Positions 8,705-17,970 of a stretch of 64,000 bases of DNA are shown piece after piece (position 1 is the first letter of the stretch; each line of letters opens with the position of its first letter). Source of the DNA: Rhodohalobacter halophilus (GTDB taxonomy: Bacteria; Bacteroidota; Rhodothermia; Balneolales; Balneolaceae); NCBI RefSeq assembly GCF_001715195.1, contig NZ_MDWE01000023.1:1-64000 (forward strand). Reading direction: 5' to 3'. Under the pieces are notes generated by a model. The model had not been told where the DNA came from and searched no databases. It saw nothing but the letters and a program-made list of their open reading frames with translations. Both the position numbers and the translations under genes were made by a program.

Positions 8705-9925
8705 ATGAAGAAATCAATACAACAAACTCTATCGATTTTTGCTGCTCTCTTGTTCGTTATCAGTTCAACAGCTGTAGCTCAACAATCTGACTACCAGATA
8801 CAGCAAGATTTCAGAGCAGATTACTCAGAACTTGTAAACCGGGTAGATAACGCTGTTTCTTCCGATGATCTGCAAGGGTTAAACGCAGATATTGATGCAC
8901 TTGAGGCAGACTACTCTGAATACTCTTCAATTATCAATGCGGCACTATATCCAGAAACATTTTCGCAGAGAATTGAAGATTTGAGAAACCGCTACACAGC
9001 TTCAGAGCAGAATATCACTGTAATTGAGGAGCTGAATGAGCGAATCCGTGGTTTGATGGACGAACTGGACGGCTTTAGAAATCAACTTTCTGACCTGGAT
9101 GAAGAACAGGCGAACCTAAAAGAGCAGCTCGACAGATCATCTGCCAATGAAAGAAGACAAGCAGCCCTGATTCGTCAATATCGCGAAAATCTGGAAACAC
9201 GGGATCAGTTTGTAACCGAGTTTCTCGAAAATCTGATGACGAAGTATCAGTCTATGGATGCTGCAACTCAGTCAGAAATTGCTGATGCGGCTGAGCGAAT
9301 GGAAGACAATCCAGTAGAAGTGCTGAAAACAATTATCGCCGAATACACCAATACAGCAAATCAAAGCTCTGATTTGGCTGCGGGTGACTATCTGGCCATG
9401 AGAGCTCAGCATGGATATTTTGCTGATGTGTGGGACAGAATTGGCGACCGTTTGACAAATACATTTACACCTGACTCTCCTGTTCAGGAACGCCAGGAAG
9501 TGTCTGATATGCTAGCTGCATGGCAGGCAAGTATAGACAACAAACTGTGGAATTCACTCTCAACTGCATTTAACCAGAATGGCATTGAGCTCGGGTCTTT
9601 CACAAGTGCAAGCACTTTCTTTGATGCACTTGGTATCTACGTGCGGGAGTCTTCACAGCAAGCTGTAGAATCAAACAGCGAAGAAGACTACGAAGTGTAT
9701 CGTAATTTTGCCAACTTCTGGAACTCAACTGTGAAAGGACAGTGGGGAGAACTGATGATACAGGGTAATGTACTCAGTACATCAGAAATGGCAGAAATTG
9801 ACGTAGAATTGGGAACCTGGGGGGAGAATGCTCCTGCAACATCTAACTTAATGTTTATCCTGTTCCTGGTAAGTTTAGCTGTAATTATCGGTCTTGTTGT
9901 TCTTCTTGTAACCAAGAAAAACTAA
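8705..9925 (+). CDS. Exported coiled-coil protein with C-terminal membrane anchor, unknown function
   Basis: The 406-residue product has a cleavable-looking signal peptide (ending near AVAQQ, about residue 26) and a long heptad-rich region at about 95-165. A helical domain follows, then one C-terminal membrane segment (about 383-402) with a short KKN tail on the cytoplasmic side. The bulk would therefore sit in the periplasm, anchored at its C-terminus. I do not recognise the family. It follows a small lipoprotein gene and is closed by a strong terminator, so the pair forms a two-gene unit. Confidence 0.75.
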   Translation: MKKSIQQTLSIFAALLFVISSTAVAQQSDYQIQQDFRADYSELVNRVDNAVSSDDLQGLNADIDALEADYSEYSSIINAALYPETFSQRIEDLRNRYTASEQNITVIEELNERIRGLMDELDGFRNQLSDLDEEQANLKEQLDRSSANERRQAALIRQYRENLETRDQFVTEFLENLMTKYQSMDAATQSEIADAAERMEDNPVEVLKTIIAEYTNTANQSSDLAAGDYLAMRAQHGYFADVWDRIGDRLTNTFTPDSPVQERQEVSDMLAAWQASIDNKLWNSLSTAFNQNGIELGSFTSASTFFDALGIYVRESSQQAVESNSEEDYEVYRNFANFWNSTVKGQWGELMIQGNVLSTSEMAEIDVELGTWGENAPATSNLMFILFLVSLAVIIGLVVLLVTKKN

Positions 9926-9950: not shown

Positions 9951-9982
9951 AAAGCCGGCTCATTGATGAGTCGGCTTTTTTT
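9951..9982 (+). terminator. Intrinsic terminator
   Basis: AAGCCGGCTCA pairs with TGAGTCGGCTT (one G-T mismatch) around a TTGA-type loop and ends in seven T residues. It isolates the two-gene envelope unit from the trp leader. Confidence 0.88.
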
Positions 9983-10079
9983 ATGCAAATTTGTAATGAT
10001 CAGCTTAATCGAAAAGTTTTATCACATTTGTTCACAAATCTGTTGCATTTAAACAAACCAACCTATACTTTCTGCACGT

Positions 10080-10151
10080 ATGAAAAAGCATAACGTACAT
10101 ATCAATTGGTGGTGGCCCGCGCGAAATATTTCGGCAGTGGAATCACTATGA
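10080..10151 (+). CDS. trpL: trp operon leader peptide with WWW
   Basis: A 23-codon reading frame starts with ATG at 10080, contains three consecutive TGG codons at 10107-10115 and stops with TGA at 10149. It lies 73 bases upstream of trpE and immediately before a terminator hairpin. Three adjacent codons for the rarest amino acid at this position are the hallmark of a ribosome-sensed attenuator. Ribosomes short of charged tRNA-Trp would stall there. The residues after the tryptophans read PARNISAVESL. No good Shine-Dalgarno sequence precedes the ATG, which is common in this group. Confidence 0.9.
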   Translation: MKKHNVHINWWWPARNISAVESL

Positions 10152-10191
10152 TTTGATTACGTTTCAGAAAGAATTATTAAACCCGCTGCCG
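10122..10191 (+). promoter_or_regulatory. trp attenuator: pause hairpin and antiterminator
   Basis: Three competing structures can be drawn by eye. A 12-base palindrome (CGAAATATTTCG, 10122-10133) lies just after the Trp codons. The segment CGGCAGTGG (10132-10140) overlaps it and pairs over nine positions, one a G-T wobble, with CCGCTGCCG at 10183-10191. That second segment is also the left arm of the terminator at 10179-10213. Stalling at the Trp codons would block the first hairpin, free 10132-10140 and so prevent the terminator. This is the classic region 1:2, 2:3 and 3:4 logic; the folding energies were not computed. Confidence 0.85.
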
Positions 10192-10213
10192 TGTTACGGT
10201 TGCGGGTTTTTTT
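10179..10213 (+). terminator. trp attenuator terminator
   Basis: AAACCCGC pairs perfectly with GCGGGTTT, an inner CCG/CGG extends the stem, and seven T residues follow. It sits 12 bases before the trpE start and would stop transcription when charged tRNA-Trp is plentiful. Confidence 0.92.
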
Positions 10214-10224
10214 ATTTATAGCAT

Positions 10225-11685
10225 ATGGATTTCAATCAATTTTCAGAGTTAGCCAAGCAGTATACTGCCATTCCGGTCTACAGACGGATGATGGCCGATA
10301 TATTAACCCCGGTTTCACTTTTTCTATCAATTCGGGAAAAGGCGCACTACCCGTTTCTTTTTGAGTCTGTAGAGGGGGGAGAACATCTTGCCCGATACTC
10401 ATTTCTGGGCAGTAATCCATACCAGGTATTGACATTCGACGGTAACCGGGTTGAACTGCAGGTAAACGATGAAAAAACAGAACTTAAAGAGAACTATTTT
10501 TCAGCACTTGAACGGCTTACAACAGAGCACAGTGAGCCAAATTTGCCTGAATTACCCCGTTTGACAGGTGGTGCTGTGGGATTTTCATCCTATGACACCG
10601 TTCGAGAGGTTGAAAATCTTCCCCATGTTCCCAAACAAGATCTGGATGTACCGGAAGCGATCTGGGCTTTCTATGATGAAGTGTATGCATTTGATCATGT
10701 AAAGCAACAGGTCATCATCATGAAGACGGTTTTTGTAGATGAATCTACTGATCTTGAAAAAGCCTATTCAGAAGCAGAATCAGCCCTGGATATAATGGAG
10801 GATAAAGCTGTAGCTGTTCCATCCAAACCGGGCTCCTTTCAACTTGATACGTCATCATTGAGCAGCAATATCACGCAGACAAAATTCCATTCCGTCGTTA
10901 ACAGGGCAAAAGAGTACATCTACGAAGGGGATATTTTTCAGGTTGTCCTTTCCCAGCGGTTTGAAGTTCCGTTTGAAGGCGACAAATTCACTCTTTACAG
11001 AGCATTGAGGATGGTAAATCCATCTCCCTACCTGTTCTTTCTGGATTTTGATGAGTTTTCATTAGTAGGCTCATCACCGGAGGTATTGGTTCGAACAACG
11101 GGGAAAGAAGCACGGTTACTTCCAATTGCCGGAACCCGGCCGAGGGGAATAAATCATGAAGAAGATCTTGAGCTGGAAAAAGATCTGTTGAATGATCCGA
11201 AAGAGATTGCTGAACACATCATGCTGGTTGATTTGGGGCGAAATGATCTATCCCGGGTTTGTAAATCCGGAACTGTTAAGCTGGAAAGAAATATGGCCAT
11301 TGAGCGATTTTCACACGTGATGCATATTGTATCGGATGTAATCGGAGAACTTTCGGAAGATCAATCATCCGTGGATGCCCTGATGCAGTGTTTTCCTGCC
11401 GGCACCGTTAGCGGCGCACCGAAAATTCGTGCCATGGAAATAATTGATGAACTGGAGCCAACCAAACGTGGACCCTATGCCGGAGCTGTCGGTTATTTCG
11501 ATTTTTCCGGCAACATGGATACCTGCATTGCAATTCGTACCATGCTGGTAACCAATGGATCCGTTTTCATTCAGGCAGGTGCGGGGATCGTGGCAGACAG
11601 TGAACCGGATAAGGAGTTTGAAGAGACCAAAAATAAAGCCGGTGCGCTAATTGAAGCGCTAAACGTTGCACTGAATATCACTTAA
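10225..11685 (+). CDS. trpE: Anthranilate synthase component I
   Basis: TrpE converts chorismate to anthranilate using ammonia supplied by TrpG. The 486-residue protein has the N-terminal regulatory region, including 'FLFESVEGGEHLARYSFLG', which matches the LLES-type tryptophan feedback site. The chorismate-binding core carries 'IAGTRPRG', 'EHIMLVDLGRNDLSRVC', 'MQCFPAGTVSGAPKIRAMEII' and 'AGAGIVADSEP'. It is the first gene behind the attenuator. The glutaminase trpG is separate and follows trpS. Confidence 0.97.
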   Translation: MDFNQFSELAKQYTAIPVYRRMMADILTPVSLFLSIREKAHYPFLFESVEGGEHLARYSFLGSNPYQVLTFDGNRVELQVNDEKTELKENYFSALERLTTEHSEPNLPELPRLTGGAVGFSSYDTVREVENLPHVPKQDLDVPEAIWAFYDEVYAFDHVKQQVIIMKTVFVDESTDLEKAYSEAESALDIMEDKAVAVPSKPGSFQLDTSSLSSNITQTKFHSVVNRAKEYIYEGDIFQVVLSQRFEVPFEGDKFTLYRALRMVNPSPYLFFLDFDEFSLVGSSPEVLVRTTGKEARLLPIAGTRPRGINHEEDLELEKDLLNDPKEIAEHIMLVDLGRNDLSRVCKSGTVKLERNMAIERFSHVMHIVSDVIGELSEDQSSVDALMQCFPAGTVSGAPKIRAMEIIDELEPTKRGPYAGAVGYFDFSGNMDTCIAIRTMLVTNGSVFIQAGAGIVADSEPDKEFEETKNKAGALIEALNVALNIT

Positions 11686-11723: not shown

Positions 11724-12719
11724 ATGACAAAAAAGAAAACGATTCTCTCCGGAATTCAACCATCAGGTAAACTGCATATCGGGAATTACTTTGGTGCGAT
11801 GAGACAGCACATCGCCATGCAGGAGGAGGGAGATTCCTTCTACTTTTTGGCCAATTATCACTCACTTACTTCTCTGAACGACGGACAACTTCTTGAGGAG
11901 TACACAAAAGATGTAGTGCTTGATTACCTGGCATTAGGGCTAGATCCCAATAAATGTACATTTTTTGCCCAGTCGGATGTTCCGCAAACTACCGAACTGG
12001 CATGGATTCTCGGATGCCTGACTCCGGTTTCCTTAATGGAGAAAGGAGTGGCGTACAAAGATAAAATCGCGAACGGATTGAACCCGAATATCGGTCTGTT
12101 TACCTATCCAATTCTACAAGCTGCGGATATTTTAATCTACCACTCTGATCTGGTTCCGGTCGGTGAAGATCAGAAACAGAACATTGAAATTGCACGTGAT
12201 CTGGCCGGAAAATTGAATCGGGCATATGACGAGGAACTGCTTAAGATTCCGGAAGAGTATATCGTAAAAAGTGTGGCAACAGTTCCGGGAATTGATGGAC
12301 GTAAGATGAGTAAATCGTACGACAATACGATTAATATCTTTGATGAAGGGAAATCACTTAAGAAGCGGGTGATGTCTATCGAAACGGACTCCACGGCTTT
12401 GGAAGAGCCCAAAAACCCCGATTCATGCAACGTATTTTCACTCATCAAACTATTTGCAGATGAAAATCGACAGCATGAAGTGGCTCAAAAATATAGGGCC
12501 GGCGGATACGGCTACGGTCACGCCAAAAAAGAGCTTCTTGGATTGATTCAGGACTATTTTGCCGATGCACGAGATCGCAGAAAAGAGTTGGAAAATGATA
12601 TGGATTATGTTCACGATGTACTCAGGGAAGGCGGTAAAAAAGCGCGTGAACGTGCTGAAGAGGTCATGGAACCGATTCGGTCCGTTACAGGTTTGTTCAG
12701 AAGCTTTAACTACGAATGA
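11724..12719 (+). CDS. trpS: Tryptophanyl-tRNA synthetase
   Basis: TrpS charges tRNA-Trp with tryptophan. The 331-residue class I synthetase has the HIGH-like 'GKLHIGNYFGAM' near residue 16, 'DLVPVGEDQKQNIE' and the KMSKS loop 'RKMSKSYDN'. It lies between trpE and trpG, 38 bases after the first and 10 before the second. It should therefore be expressed from the same attenuated transcript as the biosynthetic genes. trpS is normally unlinked to trp operons, so the placement is unusual and makes a direct feedback loop through tRNA-Trp charging. Confidence 0.96.
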   Translation: MTKKKTILSGIQPSGKLHIGNYFGAMRQHIAMQEEGDSFYFLANYHSLTSLNDGQLLEEYTKDVVLDYLALGLDPNKCTFFAQSDVPQTTELAWILGCLTPVSLMEKGVAYKDKIANGLNPNIGLFTYPILQAADILIYHSDLVPVGEDQKQNIEIARDLAGKLNRAYDEELLKIPEEYIVKSVATVPGIDGRKMSKSYDNTINIFDEGKSLKKRVMSIETDSTALEEPKNPDSCNVFSLIKLFADENRQHEVAQKYRAGGYGYGHAKKELLGLIQDYFADARDRRKELENDMDYVHDVLREGGKKARERAEEVMEPIRSVTGLFRSFNYE

Positions 12720-12729
12720 TTACTGAGCA

Positions 12730-13296
12730 ATGATACTAATTATCGACAATTACGACTCTTTTACTTACAACCTGGTCCACATTGTGGCTTCGGCTACTGA
12801 CAACTACAAAGTGGTTCGGAATGATGTAATGAGTGTAGAGGAGATTAAATGCCTGAACCCAAGTAAAATATTGATTTCCCCCGGACCCGGTCGACCGGAA
12901 AATGCAGGTGTTACAGAACAGGTGATACGGATTTTAGGGAAAGAGATTCCGATTCTGGGAGTTTGTCTGGGACATCAGGCAATCGGTAATGTATTTGGCG
13001 CAAAGGTTGTACACGCACCCAGCTTGATGCACGGTAAAACCTCACAAATACATCACGACGGCAAAACCGTTTTTGATAAAGTAGATGATGCATTTACTGC
13101 AACCCGATACCACTCACTTGCACTGGATTCAACCACCATACCGGATGTACTGGAAGTGAGTGCACGGACAGATGATGAAGTCATCATGGGGGTGAGGCAT
13201 AAAGAGTATCCAATTGAAGGTATCCAATTCCATCCGGAAAGTATCTTAACAACGGAAGGACCGAAAATTGTAAAGAACTGGATCCGTCAGAACTAA
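12730..13296 (+). CDS. trpG: Anthranilate synthase glutamine amidotransferase
   Basis: TrpG hydrolyses glutamine and passes ammonia to TrpE. The 188-residue class I amidotransferase has 'IIDNYDSFTYNLV' at the N-terminus, 'SPGPGRPENAG', the nucleophile elbow 'LGVCLGHQAIG' and the catalytic 'IQFHPESILT' His-Glu pair. In many bacteria the same subunit also serves para-aminobenzoate synthase; no pabB is present in this window. The start is 10 bases after trpS. Confidence 0.95.
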   Translation: MILIIDNYDSFTYNLVHIVASATDNYKVVRNDVMSVEEIKCLNPSKILISPGPGRPENAGVTEQVIRILGKEIPILGVCLGHQAIGNVFGAKVVHAPSLMHGKTSQIHHDGKTVFDKVDDAFTATRYHSLALDSTTIPDVLEVSARTDDEVIMGVRHKEYPIEGIQFHPESILTTEGPKIVKNWIRQN

Positions 13297-13325
13297 GTAT
13301 TGAATCATATAAACGGTAAAATATT

Positions 13326-14363
13326 TTGAGCAAAGAGTTTACATACTATTTAGAGAAAATTTCTATCAGTGAAAACCTGGAGACAGATGAGGCATCTTCT
13401 GCCTTGAACCTGATACTGAAAGGTGAAGTATCTGACGCCGAAATTGCCGCGTTTTTGATGGGCATGCGGAGTAAAGGAGAGACGGTGGGTGAATTAACCG
13501 CTTTTGTAGAAGTGATGCGAAAGGAGTCTGTCCCGGTTGAAGTAAACAGCGATGGAGCCGTTGATCTTTGTGGAACGGGAGGCGACAAATCCGGAACATT
13601 TAATATTTCAACAGCAGCCATGTTTGTTGTTGCAGGAGCGGGTGTGCCGGTCTTAAAGCATGGAAATCGAAGTGTTTCGAGCAAGAGTGGCAGTTATGAT
13701 GTACTTGAGGAGCTAGGAGCTGTACCCAATTTGCAAAAAGCGGGCGTGGAAAAGATGTTTGATGAAACCGGAATGGCCTTTATGTTTGCTCCCAATTTTC
13801 ATCCTGCCATGAAATACGTGATGCCGGCAAGAAGGTCACTGAAAATGAGAACATTCTTCAATATGCTGGGGCCGCTTTTAAACCCTGCAGATGTTAAAAG
13901 CCAGGTAATCGGCGCATTTAGCCGCGAAGCTGCATCTATGATGGCTCAAATACTCGCAAATCTCGATACTGAACGCGCCTACACCCTGAACGCTCATGAT
14001 GGGCTGGATGAAGTCTCTCTGACAAGCCAGAGCGAAATTTTTGAACTTCAATCAAACCTCACCAACGGTTCCGTAACATTTGATCCTGAATCGTTGAATT
14101 ATCAAAAGGAGAGTATGGAATCTCTTATGGGGGGCGATGCTAAAAAGAATGCTTCAATCATCAAGAACATTATGGATGGCGAAGCAACCCGGGCACAGCA
14201 GAATATCGTAACGCTGAATGCGGCATTTGCCATACATGCTGCCGGAGCATCAGATTCACTTCAAGATGCCAATCAAAAAGCGATAAAGAGCATTGAGACG
14301 GGCGAGGCGAGTCGAAAACTGGATGAATTTATTACTGTATCTCAAAAATTATCTCAAATCTGA
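13326..14363 (+). CDS. trpD: Anthranilate phosphoribosyltransferase
   Basis: TrpD joins anthranilate to PRPP. The 345-residue protein shows the glycine-rich 'DLCGTGGDKSGTFNIST' PRPP site, 'KHGNRSVSSKSGSYDVLEELG' and 'NMLGPLLNPA'. The start is TTG at 13326: the next in-frame ATG would remove the helical N-terminal domain that the family needs. The stop overlaps the trpC start as TGATG, which suggests translational coupling. Confidence 0.95.
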   Translation: MSKEFTYYLEKISISENLETDEASSALNLILKGEVSDAEIAAFLMGMRSKGETVGELTAFVEVMRKESVPVEVNSDGAVDLCGTGGDKSGTFNISTAAMFVVAGAGVPVLKHGNRSVSSKSGSYDVLEELGAVPNLQKAGVEKMFDETGMAFMFAPNFHPAMKYVMPARRSLKMRTFFNMLGPLLNPADVKSQVIGAFSREAASMMAQILANLDTERAYTLNAHDGLDEVSLTSQSEIFELQSNLTNGSVTFDPESLNYQKESMESLMGGDAKKNASIIKNIMDGEATRAQQNIVTLNAAFAIHAAGASDSLQDANQKAIKSIETGEASRKLDEFITVSQKLSQI

Positions 14364-15157
14364 TGGTATCCATTCTGAATCGAATCACTGAACAGACTTT
14401 AGAGGATCTCAAGAAAAAGAGACGCAGGGTATCAATGCGCGATTTTGAAAGTTTTCCACGGTTTGAAAAACCACGGAAGCTGATGAGTGATGCACTTTCT
14501 GACAGTGAGTCTGTATCGATCATTGCTGAAGTGAAAAAAGCTTCTCCCTCAAAAGGAGTGATACGAGACGATTTTGATCCTGAGAAAATTGCAGATCGGT
14601 ACATCGAATCAGGGGCATCGGCTATCTCTGTACTTACAGATGAACCCTTTTTTCAGGGATCTCTTGACTACCTGGAGAAAATCTCTGATTTGAGTCCCAT
14701 ACCTGTATTAAGAAAGGATTTTATTTTAGACCCGTATCAGATAAAAGAGGCGAGAGCGAGTGGTGCAGATGCCATACTTTTAATCGCAACGATCTATGAA
14801 GGCAATCAACTTTCCGAGTTATTGGCTGCAACCAAAGAATTTGGTTTACAGGCGTTGGTTGAGTGTTATCATGAAGAAGAAGTTGAGTCCATGAATTGGG
14901 ATCAGATTGAGATTCTGGGCGTGAATAACCGTAACTTAAACACGTTTGAAGTGGATCTTCATCGAGGTATTGAGCTACTGAATCGGGCACCGGAAAACAT
15001 TATAAAAGTTTCGGAAAGCGGCATTCACAAACGAGAAGATATTTCCCATTTGAAGAAAAAAGGCATACATGCTGCTCTGATCGGTGAACATTTAATGAAA
15101 CAGCACGATCCGGGTAAAGCATTGAAAGAACTCCTGAACAAAGAACAGAAATTTTAG
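14363..15157 (+). CDS. trpC: Indole-3-glycerol phosphate synthase
   Basis: TrpC closes the indole ring to give indole-3-glycerol phosphate. The 264-residue TIM barrel shows 'IIAEVKKASPSKG' (catalytic Lys), 'SVLTDEPFFQGSLDYL', 'PVLRKDFILD', 'GVNNRNLNTFEVDL' and 'VSESGI'. The ATG shares one base with the trpD stop. TrpF is a separate gene 15 bases downstream rather than a C-terminal domain. Confidence 0.95.
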   Translation: MVSILNRITEQTLEDLKKKRRRVSMRDFESFPRFEKPRKLMSDALSDSESVSIIAEVKKASPSKGVIRDDFDPEKIADRYIESGASAISVLTDEPFFQGSLDYLEKISDLSPIPVLRKDFILDPYQIKEARASGADAILLIATIYEGNQLSELLAATKEFGLQALVECYHEEEVESMNWDQIEILGVNNRNLNTFEVDLHRGIELLNRAPENIIKVSESGIHKREDISHLKKKGIHAALIGEHLMKQHDPGKALKELLNKEQKF

Positions 15158-15172
15158 AAAACAAATCAGTTC

Positions 15173-15838
15173 ATGTTTGCAGAACCAGAAAACAGAACAA
15201 AAGTAAAAATTTGCGGATTAACCACGTTAGAGGATGCACGATTTGTGTCAGGTGCGCTGGCAGATTTTCTTGGTTTTATTTTTTATCCGGAGAGCCCGCG
15301 CTATGTTGACCCTGCAAAAGCAGGTGCTATTATTAACTGGCTTGAAGGGCCGGGGAAAGTTGGTGTTTTTGTAAATCAGCCGCTCGATGATGTGAACAGT
15401 ATCGCTAAACAGACCGGAGTGGACTATGTGCAGCTTCACGGTAATGAGTCGCCCGACTACTGCAGCTTAGTTGAAAAACCGGTTATAAAAGCATTTCATA
15501 TAGACGAAGATACAGATCCGGCGGATCTTGAGAACTCCATCGAGTCATATTTGAATGAGATTGAGTTCATTCTATTTGATACCAAAAGTGAAACAGAGTG
15601 GGGCGGGACGGGCAAATCTTTTGATTGGAAAATATTGGAGAATATCACTCACGATAAACCATTTTTCCTTTCCGGAGGGTTAAAGACGGAGAATGTTCGT
15701 AAAGCCATTGATGCTGTTCAGCCTTACGCCGTGGATCTCTCAAGCAGTCTCGAGGATTCTCCCGGTTTAAAAGATTTTGATAAGATTGAACGCTTCTTTG
15801 ATGAAATGCGTGAGATTTGGGAGGAGCAGGAACTTTAA
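15173..15838 (+). CDS. trpF: Phosphoribosylanthranilate isomerase
   Basis: TrpF performs the Amadori rearrangement before TrpC. The 221-residue TIM-barrel protein has 'KVKICGLTTLEDA' with the catalytic Cys near the N-terminus, 'DYVQLHGNE', 'FDTKSETEWGGTGKSFDW' with the conserved Asp, and 'FFLSGGLKTENV' plus 'VDLSSSLE' for phosphate binding. The DLSS reading replaces the more common DVSS. An 85-base gap to trpB is the longest inside the operon. No clear terminator is visible there, so read-through is expected. Confidence 0.93.
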   Translation: MFAEPENRTKVKICGLTTLEDARFVSGALADFLGFIFYPESPRYVDPAKAGAIINWLEGPGKVGVFVNQPLDDVNSIAKQTGVDYVQLHGNESPDYCSLVEKPVIKAFHIDEDTDPADLENSIESYLNEIEFILFDTKSETEWGGTGKSFDWKILENITHDKPFFLSGGLKTENVRKAIDAVQPYAVDLSSSLEDSPGLKDFDKIERFFDEMREIWEEQEL

Positions 15839-15923
15839 AGCATCATGTTTGGGATTGTTGACAAACCGATTGATGGATCCCGCTGCTAATTATTGACTTT
15901 ATAAGAATTGACAGGCTAAGATT

Positions 15924-17111
15924 ATGAAATACACAGCCCCAACAAAAGAAGGATATTTTGGGAAGTTTGGCGGTAAGTTTGTTCCGGAAATTTTAATTCC
16001 TGCCCTTGAGGAATTAGAAGCTGCCTATGAAGAAACTCTGGACGACCCGGTTTTTCAAAAGGAGTATCACGATTTACTACGCGAATATGTTGGAAGACCG
16101 ACAAAATTGACCTATGCGAACCGGTTGACAGATCACTATGGAAAAGCAAAAATTTATTTTAAACGTGAGGATTTGTGTCATACCGGAGCTCATAAAATCA
16201 ACAACGCAATTGGGCAGCTTCTTTTGGCAAGAAAAATGGGTAAATCCAGAATTATTGCCGAAACCGGAGCCGGGCAACACGGAGTAGCGACGGCAACTGC
16301 TTGTGCAAAGTTCGGCTTTGACTGTGTTATATACATGGGTGCTGAGGATATGGAGCGCCAAAAATTGAATGTTGAACGAATGAGGCTTCTGGGCGCTGAA
16401 GTTCGCGGTGTACACAGCGGATCGAAAACCTTGAAGGATGCCACAAATGAAGCGATCCGGGATTGGGTGACTAATGTGGAAAATACATTTTATATCATCG
16501 GATCTGTTGTGGGTCCGCATCCCTATCCAATGATGACCCGAAATTTTCATCGCGTGATTGGGGAGGAGACCGGTGAACAGATACGAAAATCAGAAGGGAG
16601 AGACCCTGATTATCTGATTGCCTGCGTTGGCGGTGGAAGTAATGCCATAGGTTTTTTCTATCCATTTATCGAAAATGACATGGTAAAAATGATCGGTGTT
16701 GAAGCGGCGGGGCTTGGAGCAGATACCGATCAAACAGCCGCTACCATCACAAAAGGTGTTCCGGGAGTTTTACACGGTTCACTAAGCTATTTGCTGCAAA
16801 GTGAAGAAGGGCAGATTCAGCTGGCTCACTCCGTAAGTGCCGGTCTCGACTACCCAGGTATTGGCCCGGAACATGCTCATCTCCACGACTCAAAACGTGT
16901 GCATTACTACGGTGTGACGGATGAGGAGGCAATGAATGCGGTAAAATTGGTTTCAGAAAAGGAGGGGATCATTCCGGCAATTGAAACAGCACATGCTCTG
17001 GCTTTTCTTGAAAAGTTGATGCCAACGACTCAAAAAGATGAAATTGTAGCTGTTAACTTTTCAGGGAGAGGCGATAAAGACATGAAAACCATTTCAGACT
17101 GGTTTGCCTGA
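15924..17111 (+). CDS. trpB: Tryptophan synthase beta chain
   Basis: TrpB condenses indole with serine on pyridoxal phosphate. The 395-residue protein has '[13 protein letters not shown]' at its start, '[11 protein letters not shown]' with the PLP lysine (Lys88 region), '[11 protein letters not shown]', '[10 protein letters not shown]' and '[16 protein letters not shown]'. This is the TrpB1 type that pairs with TrpA, whose gene follows 46 bases later. Confidence 0.97.
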
Positions 17112-17157
17112 ACCATGCCTTACTTTTATCAAGAATTGATACGCAAAAATTTAGAAA

Positions 17158-17970
17158 ATGAACAATCATAACGGACGAATTACATCTCTCTTTACAAATA
17201 GAGACAAGCACGATAAGGTGATGTCTCTCTTTATAACGGCAGGATATCCAAATCTTGAAGATACGGTTGATCTTGTATTGGGATTCGAAGCAAATGGGGC
17301 TGAACTCATTGAGTTGGGGATGCCATTCAGTGATCCCCTGGCTGACGGCCCGACCATTCAGGAGGCCAGCAATGTGTCAATTCAGAACGGTATCACCATC
17401 CCGAAAATATTTGATATGGTTAAACAGATACGGGAAAAGTCTGAAATCCCGATCATCTTAATGGGGTATATCAATCCGGTGTTAAAGTATGGAGTGAAAA
17501 AGTTTTGTGAAGAGGCTTCAAAATGTGGCGTGGATGGGTTGATTATCCCGGATGCACCGCTTGAGGAGTCTGCGATATTATCTAAAGCTGCATCCAATAA
17601 TAACCTGAACATGATCTACCTGGTTGCCCCAAACTCTACCGATGAACGAATGCGGAGAGTGGATGAAGAGAGCAGCGGTTTTGTTTACTGTGTATCTGTT
17701 ACAGGAGTAACTGGAGCCCGTGAGGGGAATGAAGTAGCTGATTCTGTATCGATGTTTATTGACCGGGTCAATAAAAATGTGACTCAAAATCCGAAACTGG
17801 TCGGTTTTGGAATTAAAAATCACCAAGATGCGCAAGTAATTTCTAAAAAACTGGATGGGTTTATCGTGGGCAGTGCCTTAATCGATACTATTAAATCCAA
17901 CTATCCCAATAACGGCTGGCAAGAAAACGTTTTTCAATTTGTTAAAGAATTGAAATATGGGAATATTTGA
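17158..17970 (+). CDS. trpA: Tryptophan synthase alpha chain
   Basis: TrpA releases indole from indole-3-glycerol phosphate and channels it to TrpB. The 270-residue TIM barrel shows 'LIELGMPFSDPLADGPTIQEA' (catalytic Glu), 'GVDGLIIPDAPLEE' (catalytic Asp) and 'GFGIKNHQDA'. It is the last gene of the trp operon. The lipoprotein gene that follows starts 29 bases later without an obvious terminator, so some read-through is possible. Confidence 0.96.
   Translation: MNNHNGRITSLFTNRDKHDKVMSLFITAGYPNLEDTVDLVLGFEANGAELIELGMPFSDPLADGPTIQEASNVSIQNGITIPKIFDMVKQIREKSEIPIILMGYINPVLKYGVKKFCEEASKCGVDGLIIPDAPLEESAILSKAASNNNLNMIYLVAPNSTDERMRRVDEESSGFVYCVSVTGVTGAREGNEVADSVSMFIDRVNKNVTQNPKLVGFGIKNHQDAQVISKKLDGFIVGSALIDTIKSNYPNNGWQENVFQFVKELKYGNI

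Follow-up and report, generated by a model that had tools for sequence, protein, structure and literature searches.

A probable ribosome-mediated transcription attenuator of the trp operon in Rhodohalobacter halophilus and its relatives

The window analyzed here consists of 64,000 nucleotides of Rhodohalobacter halophilus DNA and forms the first 64 kb of contig C16 in a draft genome of 3.1 Mb (98% complete). Ahead of trpE it very probably carries a classical ribosome-mediated transcription attenuator of the trp operon (Table 1), and the comparative evidence for trp attenuation is strong. The mechanism is of the textbook Escherichia coli type and is in itself ordinary. The present analysis adds three points: the attenuator is spread through the class, its leader mRNA is predicted to be nearly leaderless, and the sole trpS gene lies inside the attenuated operon.

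Table 1. Features of the trp leader region and operon, in window coordinates
Feature	Coordinates	Strand	Basis
Predicted promoter: -33-like TTGCATTT (10043-10050), -7-like TACTTTC (10066-10072)	10043..10072	+	pattern
Leader peptide ORF, MKKHNVHINWWWPARNISAVESL*	10080..10151	+	sequence; WWW kept across order; shuffle control
Hairpin 1:2 (anti-antiterminator), outer stem 10093-10097/10158-10162	10093..10162	+	fold; per-sequence duplexes
Sensor: three tandem Trp codons (codons 10-12)	10107..10115	+	
Arm 2, antiterminator 5' arm, CGGCAGTGG, within leader ORF	10132..10140	+	
Intrinsic terminator 3:4 with U tract	10179..10213	+	
Arm 3, antiterminator 3' arm, shared with terminator 5' arm	10183..10191	+	
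trpE, anthranilate synthase component I	10225..11685	+	TIGR00564 556.8 bits, cut-off 517.7
trpS, tryptophanyl-tRNA synthetase	11724..12719	+	TIGR00233 300.6 bits, cut-off 176.75
trpG, trpD, trpC, trpF, trpB, trpA	12730..17970	+	NCBIfam matches

Leader reading frame and alternative structures

A 23-codon leader containing three consecutive Trp codons (WWW) ahead of trpE had been proposed in the first-pass annotation and was confirmed base by base. The frame opens with the ATG at 10080, closes with the stop codon at 10149-10151 and places the tandem Trp codons immediately 5' of the trp genes. It is the only small ATG-initiated ORF (8-40 amino acids) with WWW in the 64-kb window. When leaders are compared, WWW is retained while the neighbouring codons vary. 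An excess of change at third positions was not clear in codons 2-9, so that codon-position variation is insufficient as stand-alone proof of leader translation, which is inferred from the WWW run and the reading frame alone.

The pairing elements described in the same annotation are also present. Arm 2 pairs with arm 3 (CCGCTGCCG) at exactly the nine proposed positions, with eight Watson-Crick pairs and one G-U pair, and the strong terminator lies between the leader and the first structural gene. Three features go beyond that annotation: the location of arm 2 within the leader ORF, promoter-like elements next to the leader ATG, and trpS as a gene of the operon. Its stem is formed by AAACCCGC (10179-10186) and GCGGGTTT (10202-10209), with an upper stem at about 10188-10200 and a T run that extends to 10213. 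The proposed early hairpin appears in the minimum free energy (MFE) fold of 10075-10215, which has an energy of -43.9 kcal/mol (z -3.4) that none of 200 shuffled sequences equalled. In this fold the Trp codons (10109-10115) pair with 10143-10149, and arm 2 is enclosed in the inner stem of hairpin 1:2. The 2:3 pairing has an energy of -18.6 kcal/mol in the window, a value reached by 0/200 shuffles.

Folding of the three structures gave the switch expected of an attenuator. The calculated probability of 2:3 rises from 0.06 in the free RNA to 0.99 when a ribosome occupies the Trp codons, and the terminator forms once arm 2 is masked. A ribosome stalled on the Trp codons thus frees arm 2 in these calculations and one at the stop codon masks it, and the spacing between the Trp codons and 10132, which had been thought to suit masking of hairpin 1:2 by a stalled ribosome, works there as proposed. 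The ribosome was represented by removing its footprint from the RNA, with a generally accepted footprint size; edges at 10124, 10127 and 10130 gave identical outcomes. The same direction of change was obtained in 17 of 23 loci of the genus and in all 16 loci of families f3 and f4. At equilibrium the terminator outcompetes the antiterminator, and the attenuation model therefore needs kinetics, like that of E. coli.

From these structures we infer a leader that is translated and whose read-through responds to tryptophan. Transcription of the leader by RNA polymerase would be accompanied by translation of the 23-codon peptide. Under a shortage of charged tRNA-Trp, the translating ribosome would stall at codons 10-12 and cover the 5' strand of hairpin 1:2 while leaving the RNA from 10132 onward free, so that arm 2 could pair with arm 3 before the 3' arm of the terminator is made and transcription could proceed into trpE-trpS-trpGDCFBA. 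With ample charged tRNA-Trp, it would instead reach the stop codon at 10149 and cover arm 2; arm 3 would then pair with arm 4 and transcription would end at about 10213. Without a ribosome, arm 2 would be held by hairpin 1:2, making termination the default.

The predicted promoter blocks end 7 nt 5' of the leader ATG in the window. Nearly every leader of the order has blocks of the form TTG(C/A)nTTT and TAnnTTC at such a place, ending some 6-9 nt 5' of its ATG. The blocks resemble the Bacteroidota -33/-7 promoter. Their position predicts a leader mRNA that would begin at the ATG or within a few bases of it and would thus be leaderless or nearly so. Farther upstream, a 12-pair terminator-like hairpin (9951-9978) follows the preceding gene (8705-9925) and lies 5' of the trp promoter region.

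Conservation of the leader and its pairings

TrpE comparison gives Balneolaceae as the nearest named relatives, and Rhodohalobacter sulfatireducens is among the members of the same genus group, so the initial placement in Balneolota was right. Among loci of the same order, a WWW leader precedes trpE in 71 of 87, against 0.03 expected from shuffled sequences. The corresponding counts are 17/47 loci in the rest of the class and 21/40 in other classes of the phylum, each with 0 expected; the shuffles kept base composition and did not keep dinucleotides. Further loci carry WW or WxW variants, and the leader recurs in most families of the class. A search for such leaders ahead of trpE had been suggested along with the original proposal, which a lack of conservation of WWW or of the pairing in close relatives would have refuted; both are conserved there and far beyond. 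These comparisons point to the trp attenuator as a conserved trait common to a little-studied class, and more than 100 loci become usable for comparative work.

A terminator is present in nearly all loci bearing a WW leader. Arm 2 is complementary to arm 3 (shuffle p<=0.03) in all 59 Balneolaceae loci that have a WW leader and a detected terminator, so that an antiterminator mutually exclusive with the terminator is kept in relatives. The arms differ between families while their complementarity is kept (GCAGTGG/CCCACTGC, AACAGCGGG/CCCGCTGTT, CTGAAAGCGG/CCGCTTTCAG and CGGTGGGC/GCCCACCG). All 59 loci have G as the seventh base of arm 3. Within the terminator this G stands opposite G in 44 of the 59 loci and opposite A in 4 (48/59 mismatched), whereas its pairing with arm 2 holds in 58/58 loci measured. 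The antiterminator is the straightforward explanation for its retention, and a base kept despite a terminator mismatch is an unusually clean sign of selection on the antiterminator.

Helix 1:2 covaries, with a mean energy of -10.95 kcal/mol for duplexes within the same sequence versus -8.47 ± 0.34 kcal/mol for swapped ones. Pairing of its outer stem is kept across lineages as AACGTA/TACGTT, ATGATAC/GTATCAT, ATGGTTTAA/TTAAACCAT and AACGCACA/TGTGCGT. Comparison thus supports all three pairings, 1:2, 2:3 and 3:4.

RNAalifold applied to the genus alignment returned the 2:3 helix only, with 0 compensatory pairs. The reasons are that the core does not vary inside the genus and that the rows for the window and the two relatives nearest to it have arm 4 displaced by one base. 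For this reason the arms were anchored by motif when pairs were counted. When arms 2 and 3 were shuffled across sequences of the family, the signal was modest (480 versus 470.8 ± 3.0; 5/5000), since the core barely varies at this level. The retained mismatch and the change of arms between families are stronger evidence for 2:3 than this shuffling. In family f12 and in some f10 loci, the detected 2:3 pairing was not above chance in shuffles.

The position of arm 2 relative to the leader stop varies. In Balneolaceae, arm 2 usually lies inside the leader ORF, with its first base 19-23 nt 5' of the last base of the stop codon. The usual layout in f2, f3 and part of f4 has the stop where arm 2 begins. 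With either layout, a ribosome that has reached the stop would mask arm 2.

The Trp run is weakened or missing in a few relatives (EWW, YWW, WCW, WRW, single W or, in genome G031, none). Decay of the run is seen at L032 (none, in G031), L020 (WCW), L056 (single W), L063 (WCW) and L132 (WRW), and these loci possibly form a natural loss-of-function series.

Operon context and alternative explanations

The trpS gene of the operon is the only TrpRS gene found in a genome search; the other class I match is a more distant paralogue, probably TyrRS. In 34 of 37 genomes of the class, comparison of gene positions puts trpS next to trpE or at a distance of roughly one small gene (550-710 nt). The remaining three belong to family f8, in which a convincing WW leader was not seen in the two loci read. 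Genomes of other classes, even ones carrying WWW leaders, did not show the linkage, and neither did loci of other phyla. With trpS in the operon, the attenuator would in addition control how much is made of the enzyme that produces its own signal. The linkage raises a simple feedback question, namely whether a switch responding to charged tRNA controls the charging enzyme as well. We give about even odds to a broader reading in which the attenuator is ancestral to the class, its leader mRNA is leaderless and one switch forms a closed loop that balances the synthesis of tryptophan against the charging of tRNA-Trp. This reading takes in both the operon with the cell's only TrpRS gene and f8, where trpS is unlinked and a convincing leader is likewise lacking.

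The terminator could in principle be constitutive or under control of a protein such as TRAP or of a tRNA acting directly, as in a T-box, with the short ORF incidental. A terminator alone needs no ORF, and in several families of the phylum no WW leader could be detected before trpE. Against this, WWW is kept amid changing codons and arm 3 retains a base that serves the 2:3 pairing only. No TrpR repressor was found in the genome, and the T-box covariance model (RF00230) had no match upstream of trpE or elsewhere in the genome. With TrpR and the T-box as the regulators covered by these searches, such control without a sensing leader is very improbable.

Slightly less probable still is an action of the leader through translation, by reinitiation or coupling to trpE, in place of transcription termination. 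Reinitiation has been proposed as a way in which leader genes increase the expression of the gene that follows (PMC4833913), but here the leader stop is 73 nt 5' of the trpE ATG with a canonical U-tract terminator between them, and such a terminator recurs with nearly all WW leaders. We hold it just as improbable that the element is a relict, inherited and still recognizable, whose switching has been lost in R. halophilus. The decay of the Trp run in some relatives would fit such a loss, but in the window none of the three Trp codons is missing, the 2:3 helix ranks among the strongest of the genus and the state folds work. Ribosome-mediated transcription attenuation therefore stands as the preferred reading.

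Relation to known attenuators

The E. coli trp leader has two Trp codons, and its arm 2 follows the leader stop. The window element shares with that attenuator (RF00513) a short leader with Trp codons, hairpins 1:2, 2:3 and 3:4 that exclude one another, a U-tract terminator and a location ahead of trpE; it differs in having three Trp codons, an arm 2 within the leader ORF and a genome in which TrpR was not found. The RF00513 Trp_leader model matched the window at 34.3 bits (E 2.6e-5 for 501 bases), below its gathering score of 41 bits, and this match is read as architectural similarity, short of proof of descent. At gathering thresholds, Rfam models found two tRNAs only in the whole window. 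A covariance model built from the genus leaders has one strong site in the genome, with the next matches at E above 4.

Within the same phylum, Bacteroid-trp (RF01692) is a tryptophan leader of Bacteroidetes listed by Weinberg et al. in 2010 (PMC2864571). Described as a tryptophan peptide leader, it resembles the window element in having a WWW leader before trpE and differs in sequence and stem layout. The model matches family f29 (loci L167-L170, 62-88 bits) and has a gathering score of 49 bits; even at E values as high as 5 the window was not matched, and neither was any of 100 genomes of the class. The suggestion that ribosome-sensing attenuation is little documented in the phylum is partly right: RF01692 has covered other families since 2010, and for the Balneolota/Rhodothermota branch no description was found in the literature searched. 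Literature on attenuation in Rhodothermus and Bacteroidetes and on leader peptides in Salinibacter yielded none before trp genes, and an earlier prediction for this branch is possible. The present analysis firmly places leader-peptide attenuation in a branch where no Rfam model detects it.

The predicted start at the ATG has a counterpart in the trpL attenuator of Sinorhizobium meliloti, which is also ribosome-dependent, whose RNA starts at the leader ATG and which likewise operates without transcriptional repression (PMC7298713). That system belongs to a different phylum; only trpE(G) is attenuated there, and the RNA and the peptide also act in trans (PMC7298713).

Trp-rich leaders were also encountered in more distant loci. 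Families f25 and f43 (L138-L147), from another class of the phylum, have longer Trp-rich leaders 5' of trpE, for example with WAWWW, WFWWW or WAWFW, and the four of these loci scanned against Rfam (L138, L139, L140 and L144) matched no trp leader family. Two deltaproteobacterial contigs (L216 and L219) have a common WWW leader, LEWWWAYHIDRDLCAPFVGY and a near copy, 5' of trpE.
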